Below, one piece after another: positions 16,805 to 22,968 of a stretch of 44,151 nucleotides of DNA. Position numbers and translations under genes: made by a program. The notes beneath the pieces are model-generated. The model was not told the origin of the DNA. It ran no database searches and was given only the letters and a program-made list of their open reading frames with translations. This stretch comes from Planctomycetota bacterium. GTDB taxonomy: Bacteria > Planctomycetota > Planctomycetia > Gemmatales > Gemmataceae. The stretch spans positions 1 through 44,151 of the forward strand of contig JACPPF010000175.1 in the NCBI GenBank assembly GCA_016191165.1, in the 5' to 3' direction. Position 1 is the stretch's first letter. Each line of letters starts with the position of its first letter.

Positions 16805-16950
16805 CACGCTAACATCAAGACAACAGGCTTTTCTCTCGAAAGACCGAACCAGTAACGACCGGTGACCTTATGACGTCCCGCGGCACTTCTGAAAGTCCAC
16901 AAGCAGTTCGGCGCCACGCCGCCCGCTGCCTGTATTCCGCGGCGGCTCTG
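16805..16950 (+). repeat. Duplicated kinase/ASPIC gene junction, copy 2
   Basis: This tract repeats the end of the kinase gene (AACATCAAGACAACAGGCTT...) and its downstream TAACGACCGGTGACCTTATG. The ATG is that of the ASPIC gene at 16870. No kinase frame is present upstream, so the kinase-derived part is a relic. Confidence 0.8.
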
Positions 16951-18702
16951 GGATTGCTATTCCTGTTGGCGTCATGTACGCGGGCGCCGGTTCCGGTGGA
17001 CGTGGCGCAACCGTCGCCCGCCGAAAACGGGCCGCCGTTCTTTCATGACGTCACTTCCACGTCGGGTGTCAACGCCACCTATCGCGACGGCCAGGAAGCA
17101 GGTCATTACGCCATCCTCGAATCCCTCGGCGGCGGCATCGCCCTGTTCGACTTCGACAACGACGGACTCCTCGACATCTTCATACCTGGCGGCGGTGACT
17201 TCGGCGGACCCGACAAGAAAGAACCACGCGGACTGCCAAGCAAACTTTATCGCAACCTCGGCAACCTCAAATTTGAGGACGTGACCGCCAAGGTCATGGC
17301 CGAGCAGGCGCTGTTTTACACCCACGGGTGCGCCGTTGCCGATTACGACGGCGACGGCTGGCCCGACCTGCTCGTCACCGGCTGGGGTCGCGTCGCTCTG
17401 TATCACAACGAACCGGTTGATCGCGCCGACCCCAAGAAGGGCCGCCGCCTCGTCGAGCGCGCCAGCGCGGCGGGGCTGCGCCCGATCACCTGGGCGACCA
17501 GCGCCGCCTGGGCCGACCTCGACGGCGATGGCTTCCCCGACCTCTACCTGTGCCAGTACGTCGATTGGTCCCCCGCCAACAATCCACGCTGCCGCGGCTA
17601 CTCGGCCGGCGTCGAGCGAGATGTCTGTCCCCCCGCCCAATTCAAGGGCCTGCCGCACCTTTTGTTTCGTAATAACCGTGACGGTACGTTTACCGAGATC
17701 GGCAAACAGGCGGGCCTGCGCGTCGTCGGCGTCAAGGATGACAACGGCAAACAAGTTGACATGGGCAAAGGCCTCGGCGTCGTGGCGGCCGACCTCAATG
17801 ACGATGGCCGACCCGACCTCTACGTCGCCAACGACACCGTGGACAACTTCCTCTACTTCAACCGAGGCCAATGGAAGCTCGACGAATCCGCTCTCCTGAG
17901 CGGCACCGCCCGCGATGATCGCGGCCTCGCCAACGGCAGCATGGGACTGGCCGTCGGCGACTACAACCAGACCGGCCGCGCGTCGCTTTTCGTCACCAAC
18001 TACGAAAACGAGATGCACGGCCTGTACCGCAACGCCGGACGCGAGGCGTTTTACCACAGCACGTCCACCGCGGGCATCGCCGCTTTGGGCCAGAAGTACG
18101 TCGGCTTCGGCACCAGCTTCGTCGATCTCGATCACCACGGACTCGAAGATCTCATCATCGCCAACGGCCATGTGATTCGCCACCCCGCCGGCGGCTCGCG
18201 TCTGAAACAGGCGCCGGTCCTGCTGCGCAACCTCGGCGAGGGGCGCTTCAAGGATTACAGCAAGCGCGGCGGTGATTACTTCAAGACCACGCACGTCGGC
18301 CGGGGTTTGGCCCTCGGCGATCTCGATAATGACGGCCGGCTCGATGTCGTCATCAGCCACGTCAATCACCCCGTCTCCGTCCTGCGTAATATCGCCGACG
18401 TGCAAAAAAATCACTGGCTCGGACTCAAGCTGACCGGGAAAAAACGCCGCGATCTGGTCGGCACCAAGGTCACCGTCGAAGCCGCCGGCAAACGCTGGAC
18501 CCGCTTCGTCGTTGGCGGCGGCAGCTACCTGTCCGCCCACGACCCACGCCTCGTCATCGGCCTGGGAACGGCAGACCGCATCGATCGCCTCACCATCGCC
18601 TGGTCGCACGGCAAAACCGAACAATGGCCCGGCAAGGACTTCGCCGTGGACAAATACTGGCCCGTCACCGAATCCTCGGCCACGCCCCGGATGAGACCGT
18701 AA
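16870..18702 (+). CDS. ASPIC/UnbV and FG-GAP repeat lipoprotein (CRTAC1 family)
   Basis: The 610-residue protein carries a lipoprotein signal peptide with lipobox L-A-S-C (cysteine near residue 36). A beta-propeller of FG-GAP/VCBS units with calcium-binding 'D-x-D-x-D-G' loops follows ('FDFDNDGLLDIFIPG', 'DYDGDGWPDLLVTG', 'DLNDDGRPDLYVAND'). The C-terminal ASPIC/UnbV domain (from about residue 515) has 'GTKVTVEAAGKRWTRFVVGG' and 'SAHDPRLVIGLG'. Such proteins are exported and cell-surface associated, with roles in binding; no enzyme activity is established. The start lies in a duplicated tract that also contains the kinase 3' end, so it once directly followed a kinase gene. Confidence 0.9.
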   Translation: MTSRGTSESPQAVRRHAARCLYSAAALGLLFLLASCTRAPVPVDVAQPSPAENGPPFFHDVTSTSGVNATYRDGQEAGHYAILESLGGGIALFDFDNDGLLDIFIPGGGDFGGPDKKEPRGLPSKLYRNLGNLKFEDVTAKVMAEQALFYTHGCAVADYDGDGWPDLLVTGWGRVALYHNEPVDRADPKKGRRLVERASAAGLRPITWATSAAWADLDGDGFPDLYLCQYVDWSPANNPRCRGYSAGVERDVCPPAQFKGLPHLLFRNNRDGTFTEIGKQAGLRVVGVKDDNGKQVDMGKGLGVVAADLNDDGRPDLYVANDTVDNFLYFNRGQWKLDESALLSGTARDDRGLANGSMGLAVGDYNQTGRASLFVTNYENEMHGLYRNAGREAFYHSTSTAGIAALGQKYVGFGTSFVDLDHHGLEDLIIANGHVIRHPAGGSRLKQAPVLLRNLGEGRFKDYSKRGGDYFKTTHVGRGLALGDLDNDGRLDVVISHVNHPVSVLRNIADVQKNHWLGLKLTGKKRRDLVGTKVTVEAAGKRWTRFVVGGGSYLSAHDPRLVIGLGTADRIDRLTIAWSHGKTEQWPGKDFAVDKYWPVTESSATPRMRP

Positions 18703-18945: not shown

Positions 18946-19911
18946 TCACTTGGCCTTGCCGACGCGGTTGTGCCAGGGGAAGGGGTTGACGACCTCAACG
19001 GGCCGGGTCGAGATACGTTCGCCGAGGATGCCCTCGAAGACCGACGCATAGACCTGGTCGATTTTCGCCATCGAGTGGGCGGCCATCAGAACATGCACCC
19101 GGCCTTGCGTGCCAAGCACCCAGGGTCGGCCACGACGGTCAAGTACCCGGGCAGCGCCGGCGGCATTCTTCGCCAGCTCCTGCTGGGCGCGGAACGTGAC
19201 GTCGGGACCGTCGATCGGCGCAGGCTTCAGGATGGGCGCCAGCGGCCTGCCGGTCGGATCGCGGTAGGTCAGCGCGTCCTTGGGATCTTGTGCTTCGGGT
19301 GGATCGAAGGTCATTGGCTCGACGGTCAGACCGTGCTCGCGGCGCAGCTTGTCGGCGTGCGCGGTTCGCAGGGCGACCTTGAACTTGGCGCCGTCGCCCT
19401 TGGCGTCCTTGACGGCTTGCTGCGCGGTTTCCACGATCCATTTCGCTTCACGCAGGAACGTGGCGCTGTTGACTGGGCCCGCGATGGTGTGCAAAACCCG
19501 GCCATCCGGAGCGCAGAAGTACGATGCGACATTGCCGCCTTGCTTGGCCTTGCCGACGATGCGGAAGGTGCCGACGCGCTGGAATGCACAGACGAAATAC
19601 TTGTCGAGATAGGCCCCAAGTTTTGGGTCGGCCAGGGCGTTCACACGGAGCGCCTCAGCGTTGTTTCAGGTGTAGTCCGGCTCTTCGAAGTAGCCGGAGA
19701 TGTGGATGACGAGGACGAGTTTCTCTTCTTTGAGCGCCCGTTTGGCGGCCAAGCTGGGCGTCTTCTCGAATTTGACGTTGGTGCCGTGATCGCCCTTGCA
19801 GGTCGGTTCGCCGAAGCCGTTCTTGCCGGTCTTCGGGTTGTCCGCAGCAGCGTAGGCCGTGAGGCTGGTGGCCAGTATTGCGACTGCCAGCCATCGCAGA
19901 TGGGGAAGCAT
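18946..19911 (-). CDS. Exported thioredoxin-like protein with an in-frame TGA (candidate selenoprotein)
   Basis: The frame from ATG 19911 encodes a signal peptide (residues 1-22), then a thioredoxin-like start with the central strand 'KLVLVIHISGYF'. It meets TGA at 19666-19668 (codon 82) and continues without a frame change for 239 more codons ('NNAEALRVNALADPKLGAYL', 'ASYFCAPDGRVLHTIAGPV') to 18946. The TGA falls where the first thioredoxin helix should carry its redox residue, after D-Y-T. The ribosome-binding site AAAGGAGG is excellent and no other stop occurs, which argues against an old pseudogene. A hairpin with GU in its loop follows at 19636-19654. If TGA encodes selenocysteine the product is 321 residues. 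If not, the gene is a fresh nonsense mutant, or translation restarts at GTG 19644. Confidence 0.7.
19636..19654 (-). promoter_or_regulatory. Putative bacterial SECIS hairpin after the TGA of the thioredoxin-like gene
   Basis: On the minus strand GGCG pairs with CGCC, then a C-A mismatch, then UC with GA, closing a five-base loop CGUGU. The loop G and U are 20 and 21 bases after the UGA. In the Escherichia coli fdhF element, the loop GU lies about the same distance downstream. This is a manual fold, not an energy calculation. Confidence 0.5.
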
Positions 19912-19999
19912 GTCAAACCTCCTTTGGATTGGTTGTCAAATATAAGACGATTGACCGGGCCAAAAGGATTGCGCCCGTGCCAAAGGATGGCGACGGCGC

Positions 20000-21487
20000 T
20001 CACCGACGGCGCTGGGCTTTGGGCGTGGTAGCATCCTGTCGCAAGTATAACCAGACTGATCCCGCCATCTGGTTGGAATCGTAAGGCCTTGTGATCTCGG
20101 CCAGGAGCGCCGCTTCCACCCGCAAAGGAAAGAGCTGGGTGTTATAGCCCCTCATTTTTTCCCGGCGAGCCTTGCTTTTTTCCGCGGGCTCATCGAAGGG
20201 AGCAGTTTCATAGGGGAGCAACGCCTCCATGATCTCGACATATTTCTTCTCAATTGCATTCAATTCTCGACGCAATATGACGATCTCCTTTTTTTCTTCT
20301 ACACCGGCCTTAGCTAGCCGGCTGAGTTTGGCCAGTCTAGCCAACGCGCGTTCGAAATTTGGCTCGAAATCCTCGTATTGTTCGGCGATCTCACGAAGTT
20401 TCTTTTTCCTTACCGCGATTTCCGCTGGCGTTTCCTTCTTACTTGGCCCGTCGAGGGCCGCACGGTACGTTTTCCGCAATTCATTCAGCTTCTTTTCGAT
20501 TTCCTTTTGTTGTTCGCGAGCTTTGGCAACGGCCTTTCGTTGGTTTTCAGGAACGTCGATTTTGGCCTCGTACATGCAAAAATCGCCGACCAGAAGGTCC
20601 AGGCGGCCGTCGCCGTTCCAGTCAACGGCGCAGATTTTCGCGCGCATCCCAGGTGCTATTTTCGCGCCGGCGGCCTTGCCCGCAGCAACGAGCGTTTGCG
20701 ATTGGGCCAATTTGGGTTCCTTCGCGGTGCCGATGTTCTTGTAAAACAGCACACTGCCATCACCGCACCCGAGCAATAAATCCACGCGTCCATCGCTGTC
20801 CCAGTCCACGGCGATCGGATGCGAATCACCCCCCGAAGCTTGAATCGGTTTGCCGTCCGCTTTGACCATTTGTGGCTTGCCAAAGGCATAGTTGGATGCC
20901 GAGCCATCGTTCAGGATGAGGTGCACATGGCCGCGCACGTCGCCGATGAGGAGGTCGAGTTTGCCGTCGCCGTTCCAATCTGCCGCGAAGACGGTTGAAG
21001 CACGTTCAATTTTAATGTCTTTGCGAGCGCTATCCTTGATGGGTTGCTTGCCGGCAAACTTGCCCTTGCCGAGGCCCTTGAAGAAGTAGAGGCGACCAGG
21101 CCAGGAACCGGAAAGGATATCAGGAATGCCATCGTTGTCGAGGTCCACAAACTGTGGAGTGAAGCCGATGCATCAGCCCGTGGGGACGGTGCCCTCGGTT
21201 TTGCCGTCCAGGAGGAGGTCATACTTGGAATTGAATCGGGGCGTTTGGTGGGTGCCGACGTTGCGATAGATTCGTAGTTGTCCTTCGGAGAATGCGCCGA
21301 CAAGGAGGTGCGGCTTGCCATCGCCATAAAAATCAGCCACTGCGGGGGCCGAATGACCGACGCCGCCGATGTTGATAGGTTTTCCGTCGGCCTCGACGCG
21401 AATGGGCTTGGCCAGCTCCTGGCCCCGGGCATGGAACGTTAGGGCCAGCGTGATTACCAGGGCCGTCATCCACCTTTGTTTCATCAC
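20000..21487 (-). CDS. Exported FG-GAP/VCBS protein with an in-frame TGA next to Cys (candidate selenoprotein)
   Basis: ATG 21487 opens a signal peptide (residues 1-22, ending F-H-A-R-G), then FG-GAP repeats ('VADFYGDGKPHLLVG'). TGA at 21173-21175 (codon 105) follows T-V-P-T-G and precedes C-I-G-F-T-P-Q-F-V-D-L-D-N-D-G with no change of frame. The repeats then continue ('AADWNGDGKLDLLIGDVRGH', 'AVDWDSDGRVDLLLG', 'AVDWNGDGRLDLLVG') before a coiled-coil-rich C-terminal third. Reading TGA as selenocysteine gives a Sec-Cys pair and a 495-residue protein. I recall relatives with Cys-Cys at this place but could not check. The start has AAAGGA. The product would be exported, perhaps as a redox-active beta-propeller acting with the thioredoxin-like protein encoded 88 bp downstream. 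Confidence 0.72.
21144..21158 (-). promoter_or_regulatory. Putative bacterial SECIS hairpin after the TGA of the FG-GAP gene
   Basis: On the minus strand UCCAC-AGUUU-GUGGA forms a perfect five-base-pair stem with a five-base loop. The stem begins 15 bases after the UGA and the loop GU lies at +21/+22. Distance and loop composition match the fdhF-type bacterial element (loop AGGUCU, GU near +20). Confidence 0.6.
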
Positions 21488-21652: not shown

Positions 21653-21661
21653 GGCTAAAAA

Positions 21662-21886
21662 CTATCTACCCGTCCGCCGACACCCCGGCGCCCCACATGG
21701 CGGCAGGCTCAAATCGCCGCATGACGACGACGCGGCGCCGGCCTTGATCTGCGGCATGCCGATCAATGGAAGGTGCTTCTCAAGCTTCTTGCTTTCGCAC
21801 CGGGGACATTCCGGCTCCTCGCCGCGGTTGACGAGGGTCTCGAAGTCGTTGTCGCAATCCTGGCAAGTGTAGTGATGCAAAGGCAT
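21662..21886 (-). CDS. FmdB-type zinc-ribbon protein
   Basis: The 74-residue protein has the FmdB/CxxC zinc-ribbon layout. It opens M-P-L-H-H-Y-T-C-Q-D-C, has a second pair C-P-R-C about 17 residues later, and then the conserved 'KLEKHLPLIGMPQIKAG' tail with a few more cysteines and a proline-rich end. Members are small putative regulators of unknown target; many bacteria carry one near amidase or translation genes. It lies 57 bp downstream of the rhomboid gene on the same strand and may share its transcript. Confidence 0.85.
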   Translation of the reverse strand: MPLHHYTCQDCDNDFETLVNRGEEPECPRCESKKLEKHLPLIGMPQIKAGAASSSCGDLSLPPCGAPGCRRTGR

Positions 21887-21942
21887 TTTGTTGGCTCCCT
21901 ATCCCGGCGGCTCGCTGCGCTCGCCATCGGGCTTGTGTCGGT

Positions 21943-22860
21943 TCAGGTGCGGCGGCGCTTGTACATCTCGGCGGCTTGCTTCAGAACTTCCTCGTCTTGC
22001 TGGGTCAGGCTGCCCTTGCCCCATCTGGCAATTTTTTCCAGCACGGCGTCGAGTTTCGCTTCGAGATGCTCATCGACCGACGCGCTGGGCGCCGAATTCG
22101 CGGACACGGCAACCGGCTCCTCCTTGTGCGGGTCGGGCCGGTAAAGCTTGAGGCGCGGCCGGCTCCGGGCGCTCTGCCACCACAGCATGCCGTGAAACAT
22201 GCCCGTAAAACTGCCCTGCCATTTGTAGTACGCCAGGCCAAAAGCCGCGCCCGCGAGATGAACGACGACGGCAACGCCGGTATCGCGCTGCGAAAACCAG
22301 TAAAAGGCGTCCCGCGCCACGTTCAGCACCGCAAATAGCCAGATCGGCATCGGCAGCACCAGGAACACGTAGATGATTCGCCGGGGAAAATGCAGCGCGC
22401 ACAACACCAGCATCGTCGTCACAGCGCCCGACGCCCCCAGACACGGCCTGACCGCGGTCTGGAGGACGCCCCAGCCCGTGTAAGCAATACCACCTAGCAC
22501 GGCGGAAACCAGGTAGATAACCAGAAACTCCCGACGGCCGTAGAGCTGCTCGATGTCGCTGCCAAACCACCACAAAAAAAGCATGTTGAAGATCAGATGC
22601 AGACTGCCAAGATCGGGGTCGTGCAAGAAAGCGAACGTGAGCAGGCGCCAGACTTCGCCTTCCAGGACCTTGTTGACGTCGAGGATGAACCAATCGGTGA
22701 ACCAGCTGGCCTGACCGGGGTTCGACTGCGTCGCCACCTGCAGAAGCCAGGCGATCACATTGATGGCGATCAGCCATCGGCACACGAGCCCGCTCGGCAA
22801 GAGCGAATCGAACGCGCTCGGGCCCTCGTTGCGATAGTAGTCTCGATCCTGAATTCCCAT
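21943..22860 (-). CDS. Rhomboid-family intramembrane serine protease
   Basis: The 305-residue protein has about six membrane helices with the rhomboid catalytic dyad. The serine is in 'CLGASGAVTTM' (G-x-S-G, near residue 148) and the histidine in 'VVVHLAGAAFG' (near residue 211). The L1-loop 'EVWRLLTFAFLH' and helix-2 'LHLIFNMLFLWWFG' signatures are also present. It cleaves membrane-spanning substrates in the bilayer. After the membrane domain there is a cytosolic tail of about 80 residues ending in a charged helix. I chose the ATG at 22860 because 'MGIQDRDYYRNEG' is the usual opening of planctomycete members. A GTG at 22896, just behind AAGGAGAGG, is a real alternative. Confidence 0.9.
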   Translation of the reverse strand: MGIQDRDYYRNEGPSAFDSLLPSGLVCRWLIAINVIAWLLQVATQSNPGQASWFTDWFILDVNKVLEGEVWRLLTFAFLHDPDLGSLHLIFNMLFLWWFGSDIEQLYGRREFLVIYLVSAVLGGIAYTGWGVLQTAVRPCLGASGAVTTMLVLCALHFPRRIIYVFLVLPMPIWLFAVLNVARDAFYWFSQRDTGVAVVVHLAGAAFGLAYYKWQGSFTGMFHGMLWWQSARSRPRLKLYRPDPHKEEPVAVSANSAPSASVDEHLEAKLDAVLEKIARWGKGSLTQQDEEVLKQAAEMYKRRRT

Positions 22861-22968
22861 GGGAGGCTCGGCCCCGCGGTGGGCTGTGGATTTCACCCTC
22901 TCCTTTTTACCATATCCCGGGGCGGAGTGAAAAGTCTTTGCTTGTGAAAATTTTCCGGCGGAGGTAGG

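Follow-up and report, generated by a model that had tools for sequence, protein, structure and literature searches.

The question raised by this locus is whether two adjacent reading frames, each interrupted by a single TGA, are intact selenoprotein genes and, if so, whether their products work as a pair. The window, that is, the whole stretch of 44,151 nucleotides analysed here, lies on contig C162 of a 7.2-Mb draft planctomycete genome (G000) and carries both genes on its minus strand, separated by 88 bp (Table 1). Gene 1 comprises 495 codons, open except for the TGA at codon 105, and would yield 494 or 495 amino acids depending on whether translation starts at ATG 21484 or GTG 21487 (stop TGA at 20000-20002). 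Gene 2 comprises 321 codons, interrupted only by a TGA at position 82, and is preceded by its own strong Shine-Dalgarno sequence. The frames confirm the preliminary description of two neighbouring, co-directional genes with one TGA each, and evident N-terminal signal peptides, recognized by inspection, suggest that both proteins are exported. Around the pair, an ASPIC/UnbV FG-GAP protein is encoded convergently with gene 2 (16870-18702, plus strand), and a short frame resembling an FmdB-type zinc-ribbon protein lies upstream of gene 1 (21660-21890, minus strand), adjoined by a rhomboid protease gene (21943-22896).

The reading that we consider on balance probable is that both genes are intact, with UGA decoded as selenocysteine (Sec) through a bacterial SECIS element; that they represent two separate exported families found planctomycete-wide; and that gene 1 encodes a Se-S redox propeller and gene 2 a one-selenol enzyme. 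Sec decoding, family membership, fold and the lack of pairing were established by computation, as set out below.

Table 1. Features of the two genes in window coordinates
Feature	Position	Strand	Basis
Gene 1, putatively exported FG-GAP selenoprotein, propeller read as five-bladed	20000..21487	-	Pfam, AF2 model, family alignment
Gene 1 in-frame TGA, Sec105, followed by TGC, Cys106 (vicinal Sec-Cys)	21173..21175	-	phylum loci
Gene 1 predicted core SECIS hairpin UCCACA-GUU-UGUGGA, loop about 20 nt after UGA	21144..21158	-	covariation
Propeller body (model), residues 24-305, four full blades and start of fifth	20573..21418	-	AF2, DSSP
Helical insertion (model), residues 314-463, in blade 5	20099..20548	-	AF2 DSSP, partly low confidence
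Gene 2, putatively exported thioredoxin-fold selenoprotein, 321 aa, stop TGA	18946..19911	-	AF2 model, VIA-align
Gene 2 in-frame TGA, Sec82, motif T-U-N-N-A, helix N-cap in model	19666..19668	-	homologue columns, AF2 model
Gene 2 SECIS-like hairpin, loop CGUGU	19631..19659	-	homologous hairpins in Sec members
Shine-Dalgarno-like AAAGGAGG, 6 nt before gene 2 ATG	19918..19925	-	sequence read directly

Selenocysteine decoding of the in-frame TGA codons

The genome containing the window has a tRNA-Sec (73 bits, anticodon TCA) together with SelB (361.6 bits) and SelA (559.9 bits). For SelD, nothing in this draft assembly scored above cut-off, the best match reading as a ThiL-like kinase; an assembly gap is the likely cause, because SelD is present in all five congeners tested. 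Using gene 1 with Cys in place of Sec as query, we searched 294 planctomycete genomes in translation and obtained matches in 74; the aligned column holds TGA at 72 of 75 loci and a Cys codon at the other three. SelB exceeded its cut-off in 56 of the 62 genomes with a TGA form, compared to 134 of the 232 others (Fisher p = 5e-7). The six TGA-form genomes without SelB above cut-off are all draft assemblies, and four of them have a clear tRNA-Sec; the remaining exceptions are G131, with a marginal tRNA-Sec match (49.5 bits), and G212 (77% complete), with none. SelB, tRNA-Sec and SelD are all missing from two complete Cys-form genomes, and in the family tree the Cys forms nest twice, at separate places inside Sec clades.

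The gene 2 column behaves similarly. All strict homologues in the 294-genome survey have one TGA each, as do 55 of the 57 strict matches covering the column in a survey of close relatives, the two relatives without TGA having Ala or Ser there (L303, L304). The wider superfamily of exported gene 2-like proteins, collected by profile search, is present in 51 of the 294 genomes, with Sec at the site in 22 and Cys in seven of the 29 loci examined. Sec predominates at both columns, and it is not the case that most homologues carry other residues. The argument advanced from the window by itself, that two independent decays would be an unlikely coincidence, gains substance from these same-column counts. 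A draft assembly and a stop in each frame are what one would expect of two decaying genes hit by nonsense mutations or sequencing errors; the probability of that explanation is nevertheless vanishingly small, and we reject it since dozens of independent genomes share the codon at the aligned position, alongside the Sec machinery, co-varying hairpins and Cys replacements.

A GU-bearing hairpin had been noted about 20 bases downstream of each TGA, and both were recovered, with GU-carrying loops that start about 18-20 nt past the UGA. For gene 1, covariation was analysed in register over 109 distinct Sec-form sequences. The stem follows UCC[A/G]CA-loop-UG[U/C]GGA, in which the pair at +20/+28 is A-U in 66 sequences, G-C in 30 and G-U in seven, a level of covariation reached in none of 5000 shuffles. 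Synonymous sites within the hairpin are frozen (T at +17 in 102/109, G at +23 in 107/109, G at +29 in 109/109); third codon positions of the region are otherwise mostly C and become fixed where stem or loop requires. The stem is broken in all three Cys forms. In the gene 2 superfamily, Sec members show stems such as GAGAGC-CGUGAC-GCUCUC and GAGGACGG-CGUCCUC, and comparison of Sec with Cys members found the hairpin absent from the latter; the stem of gene 2 in the window has one mismatch. The substitution patterns indicate that the hairpin of the gene 1 family is under selection as RNA, and that the gene 2 superfamily behaves alike with other stems.

Another meaning of UGA, such as Trp, or plain readthrough of a stop codon found nothing specific in its support. 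TGA is the normal stop of both genes, the replacing residue in the gene 1 family is always Cys, tRNA-Sec, SelA and SelB are present, and selection on the hairpin is confined to TGA forms; with its probability negligible on this evidence, the possibility was rejected. Comparative sequence analysis thus makes both in-frame TGAs almost certainly selenocysteine codons, each of which would be decoded through its bacterial SECIS hairpin.

The Sec-Cys propeller family and its proposed redox role

Pfam identifies FG-GAP repeats in gene 1 (FG-GAP_3, PF13517; 1.3e-28, 99.8 bits against a cut-off of 26.9) and no other domain. The AF2 model (pLDDT 84, built from 46 sequences) places the closing strand of the propeller at residues 474-481, after the helical insertion, and Sec105-Cys106 directly before the innermost strand of blade 2. 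Structure comparison by VIA-align matched the model to five-bladed GH62/GH43 propellers (Z 19.6, 3.6 Å over 267 residues), and the ranking from plain Foldseek includes FG-GAP proteins as well, CRTAC1 and integrins among them. The count of five blades is a reading of the model, drawn from the order of strands, the closing C-terminal strand and the structure matches.

When GTDB species genomes were scanned for the pattern TGA-TGY with the family motif downstream, 67 TGA stretches were recovered, some from the same genomes as the phylum sample, and the family HMM matched all 67 at E 1e-56 or better. The stretches are mostly from Planctomycetota; other labels are Armatimonadota (several classes), Bacteroidota, Verrucomicrobia, Candidatus Binatia and Vicinamibacteraceae, the last on a stretch that closely resembles planctomycete entries, and labels of metagenome-assembled genomes (MAGs) can be wrong. 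Gene 1 belongs to a widespread, putatively exported selenoprotein family with a beta-propeller scaffold, most of whose members come from Planctomycetota. Cys after Sec is nearly universal, the exceptions being Asp (L257, L258) and Arg (L081).

Several observations concern the margins of the family. Sec-Asp variants with a Cys five residues past Sec (UDIGFCPQ) occur at L277, L257 and L258. The Bacteroidales MAG PL25a_bin.72 holds three diverged Sec-Cys propeller genes (L170, L173, L203); selenocysteine would be an unusual find in that order, and the genes may have been misbinned. In G121, G130 and G167, distant FG-GAP proteins were considered as Cys forms and rejected as other FG-GAP proteins.

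Clues to function come from gene fusions and from the genome itself. In four family members (L076, L077, L082, L117), which come from three families of planctomycetes, the propeller is followed on its C-terminal side by a DsbD_N domain scoring above the Pfam cut-off, and fusions to redox domains are limited to these four loci. In the DsbD relay, the DsbD_N domain sits in the periplasm and hands electrons on to its partners there. L082 (4981-7281, minus strand) unites the propeller, DsbD_N and a PrxQ-like AhpC-TSA peroxiredoxin in one fusion, and the peroxidatic position of the peroxiredoxin is a second in-frame TGA (TPGU), making this a double selenoprotein fusion. The window's genome encodes two tandem exported proteins consisting of DsbD_N only (G000:C66:85392-86278; L291, L292), which are candidate electron donors. 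These fusions and tandem proteins, taken with the Sec-Cys pair, favour an extracytoplasmic selenenylsulfide redox role for gene 1. To function in this way, Sec105 and Cys106 would most likely alternate through a reversible selenenylsulfide (Se-S), the propeller would reduce an extracytoplasmic substrate (peroxide, disulfide or similar oxidant), and a DsbD-type thiol relay would re-reduce the pair.

Alternatively, the Sec-Cys pair could bind a soft metal or a selenium or mercury species and serve in sensing, chaperoning or detoxification instead of catalytic redox. Vicinal Cys-Sec or Sec-Cys pairs do occur in the metal-linked selenoproteins SaoL, HgcA and CopZ-like (PMC13188914), and the Asp in two family members could ligate metal. 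The DsbD_N and peroxiredoxin fusions, however, point to electron transfer, and metal-transport genes are never recurrent neighbours of the family's loci, so that we regard metal binding as unlikely. Extending the redox proposal, the Sec-Cys propeller may be a new structural class of seleno-oxidoreductase, in which a calcium-loop propeller, as opposed to a thioredoxin fold, would perform extracytoplasmic peroxide or disulfide chemistry with DsbD-alpha-like recharging, almost exclusively in the Sec form and in several phyla. This is offered tentatively, its chances standing somewhat below even.

A thioredoxin-fold neighbour and the question of pairing

The AF2 model of gene 2 shows a thioredoxin fold in residues 40-180 (pLDDT mostly 72-96 in residues 41-200), with Sec82 capping the first active-site helix. 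VIA-align superimposed the model on 3f9u (Z 10.2, 2.0 Å over 105 residues), and the closest folds are DsbD-gamma-like, DsbH and Thioredoxin_7-type domains (Z 7-10). Pfam gave nothing above cut-off, and a sequence search of the PDB gave no match. CXXC and CXXU/UXXC motifs are absent, no Cys lies within three residues of Sec, and the protein has a conserved C-terminal extension. The identities initially proposed for the two products, an FG-GAP propeller with Sec-Cys and a thioredoxin-like protein with a single Sec, are both supported. Sec in gene 2 would take the place of the first Cys of CXXC, most likely in a one-selenol peroxidase or reductase, and the protein may draw on the same extracytoplasmic thiol pool as the propeller.

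The preliminary description went further and joined the two genes into a possible redox module whose partners could exchange electrons outside the cytoplasm; as one functional unit, the thioredoxin-like selenoprotein would donate them to the Sec-Cys propeller. Shared strand, close spacing, probable export, Sec in both proteins and a ribosome-binding site for each gene all speak for such a unit, as do the fused redox domains of other propeller family members, from which it seems that the propeller can act beside redox partners. Comparison across genomes nevertheless contradicts it. Among the loci fetched, the two families are adjacent only in the window, and they are not neighbours in any other genome examined. 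Genes of the gene 2 family are present, and gene 1 absent, in all six congeners. A complete 9-Mb relative with both families (G340) has gene 2 homologues at 0.71 and 3.31 Mb and its FG-GAP gene at 6.14 Mb. Nor do the two columns change in step: G188 combines a Sec-form gene 2 with a Cys-form gene 1. Strict gene 2 members co-occur with gene 1 in two of five genomes of the phylum sample, about what their frequencies lead one to expect. When the open frames surrounding about 80 loci of the two families were compared all against all, no neighbour recurred except among closely related genomes, and loci of close relatives gave the same result. The module is therefore very improbable, and the adjacency of the two genes is particular to the window's genome. 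A local functional link between them in this organism alone is possible.

Relation to known selenoproteins and significance

A 2026 review lists 119 prokaryotic selenoprotein families and subfamilies (PMC13188914), and its descriptions mention neither an FG-GAP or propeller selenoprotein nor the motif of gene 2. NCBIfam has no family above cut-off for either protein of the window. Our literature search found no paper that connects selenoproteins to bacterial FG-GAP or VCBS proteins, and earlier mention in preprints or supplementary tables is possible (e.g., the Porphyra planctomycete paper, PMC4807772). The authors of deep-Sep state that their method may miss selenoproteins without Cys homologues (PMC12013277), which fits the gene 1 family in its almost invariable Sec form. 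Gene 1 represents a previously uncatalogued selenoprotein family, set apart from the 119 reviewed families by their descriptions.

There exist clear likenesses to known systems. SaoC, SaoL, HgcA (CU) and CopZ-like (GxUC) selenoproteins (PMC13188914, Table 1) share with gene 1 a Sec beside Cys and a bacterial SECIS just past the UGA; gene 1 differs in its Sec-Cys order and probable export, and none of those proteins is described there as FG-GAP or propeller. With FG-GAP/VCBS proteins (PF13517, PF01839; ASPIC/UnbV, CRTAC1) it shares repeated DxDGDG loops, the propeller fold and export, and is distinguished by five blades in the model, the helical insertion in the last blade and the conserved Sec-Cys before blade 2. 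Gene 2 resembles the C-terminal (gamma) domain of DsbD, DsbH and Thioredoxin_7-type proteins in its thioredoxin fold and export, whereas it has a single Sec at the helix N-cap without CXXC and adds the C-terminal extension. The VPGUxxT family (NF041383) and the Trx7/PDZ selenoprotein (NF041199) are thioredoxin-like selenoproteins as well; one of 25 gene 2 superfamily members matched NF041383 (E 0.0012), but gene 2 of the window matches neither family, and its motif is T-U-N-N-A as opposed to VPGU or CxxU. Sec-peroxiredoxins (TxxU) find their counterpart in the TPGU peroxiredoxin domain of L082, a fusion partner that is absent from the window's genes.

The bacterial selenoproteome gains a family on an unusual scaffold, a repeat propeller, that is nearly always in the Sec form. 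Families of this kind tend to escape search methods that depend on Cys homologues (PMC12013277), and pipelines that treat TGA only as stop will leave planctomycete genes of both families split or truncated. For the planctomycetes themselves, the sequences point to a selenium-based redox chemistry that would operate outside the cytoplasm.
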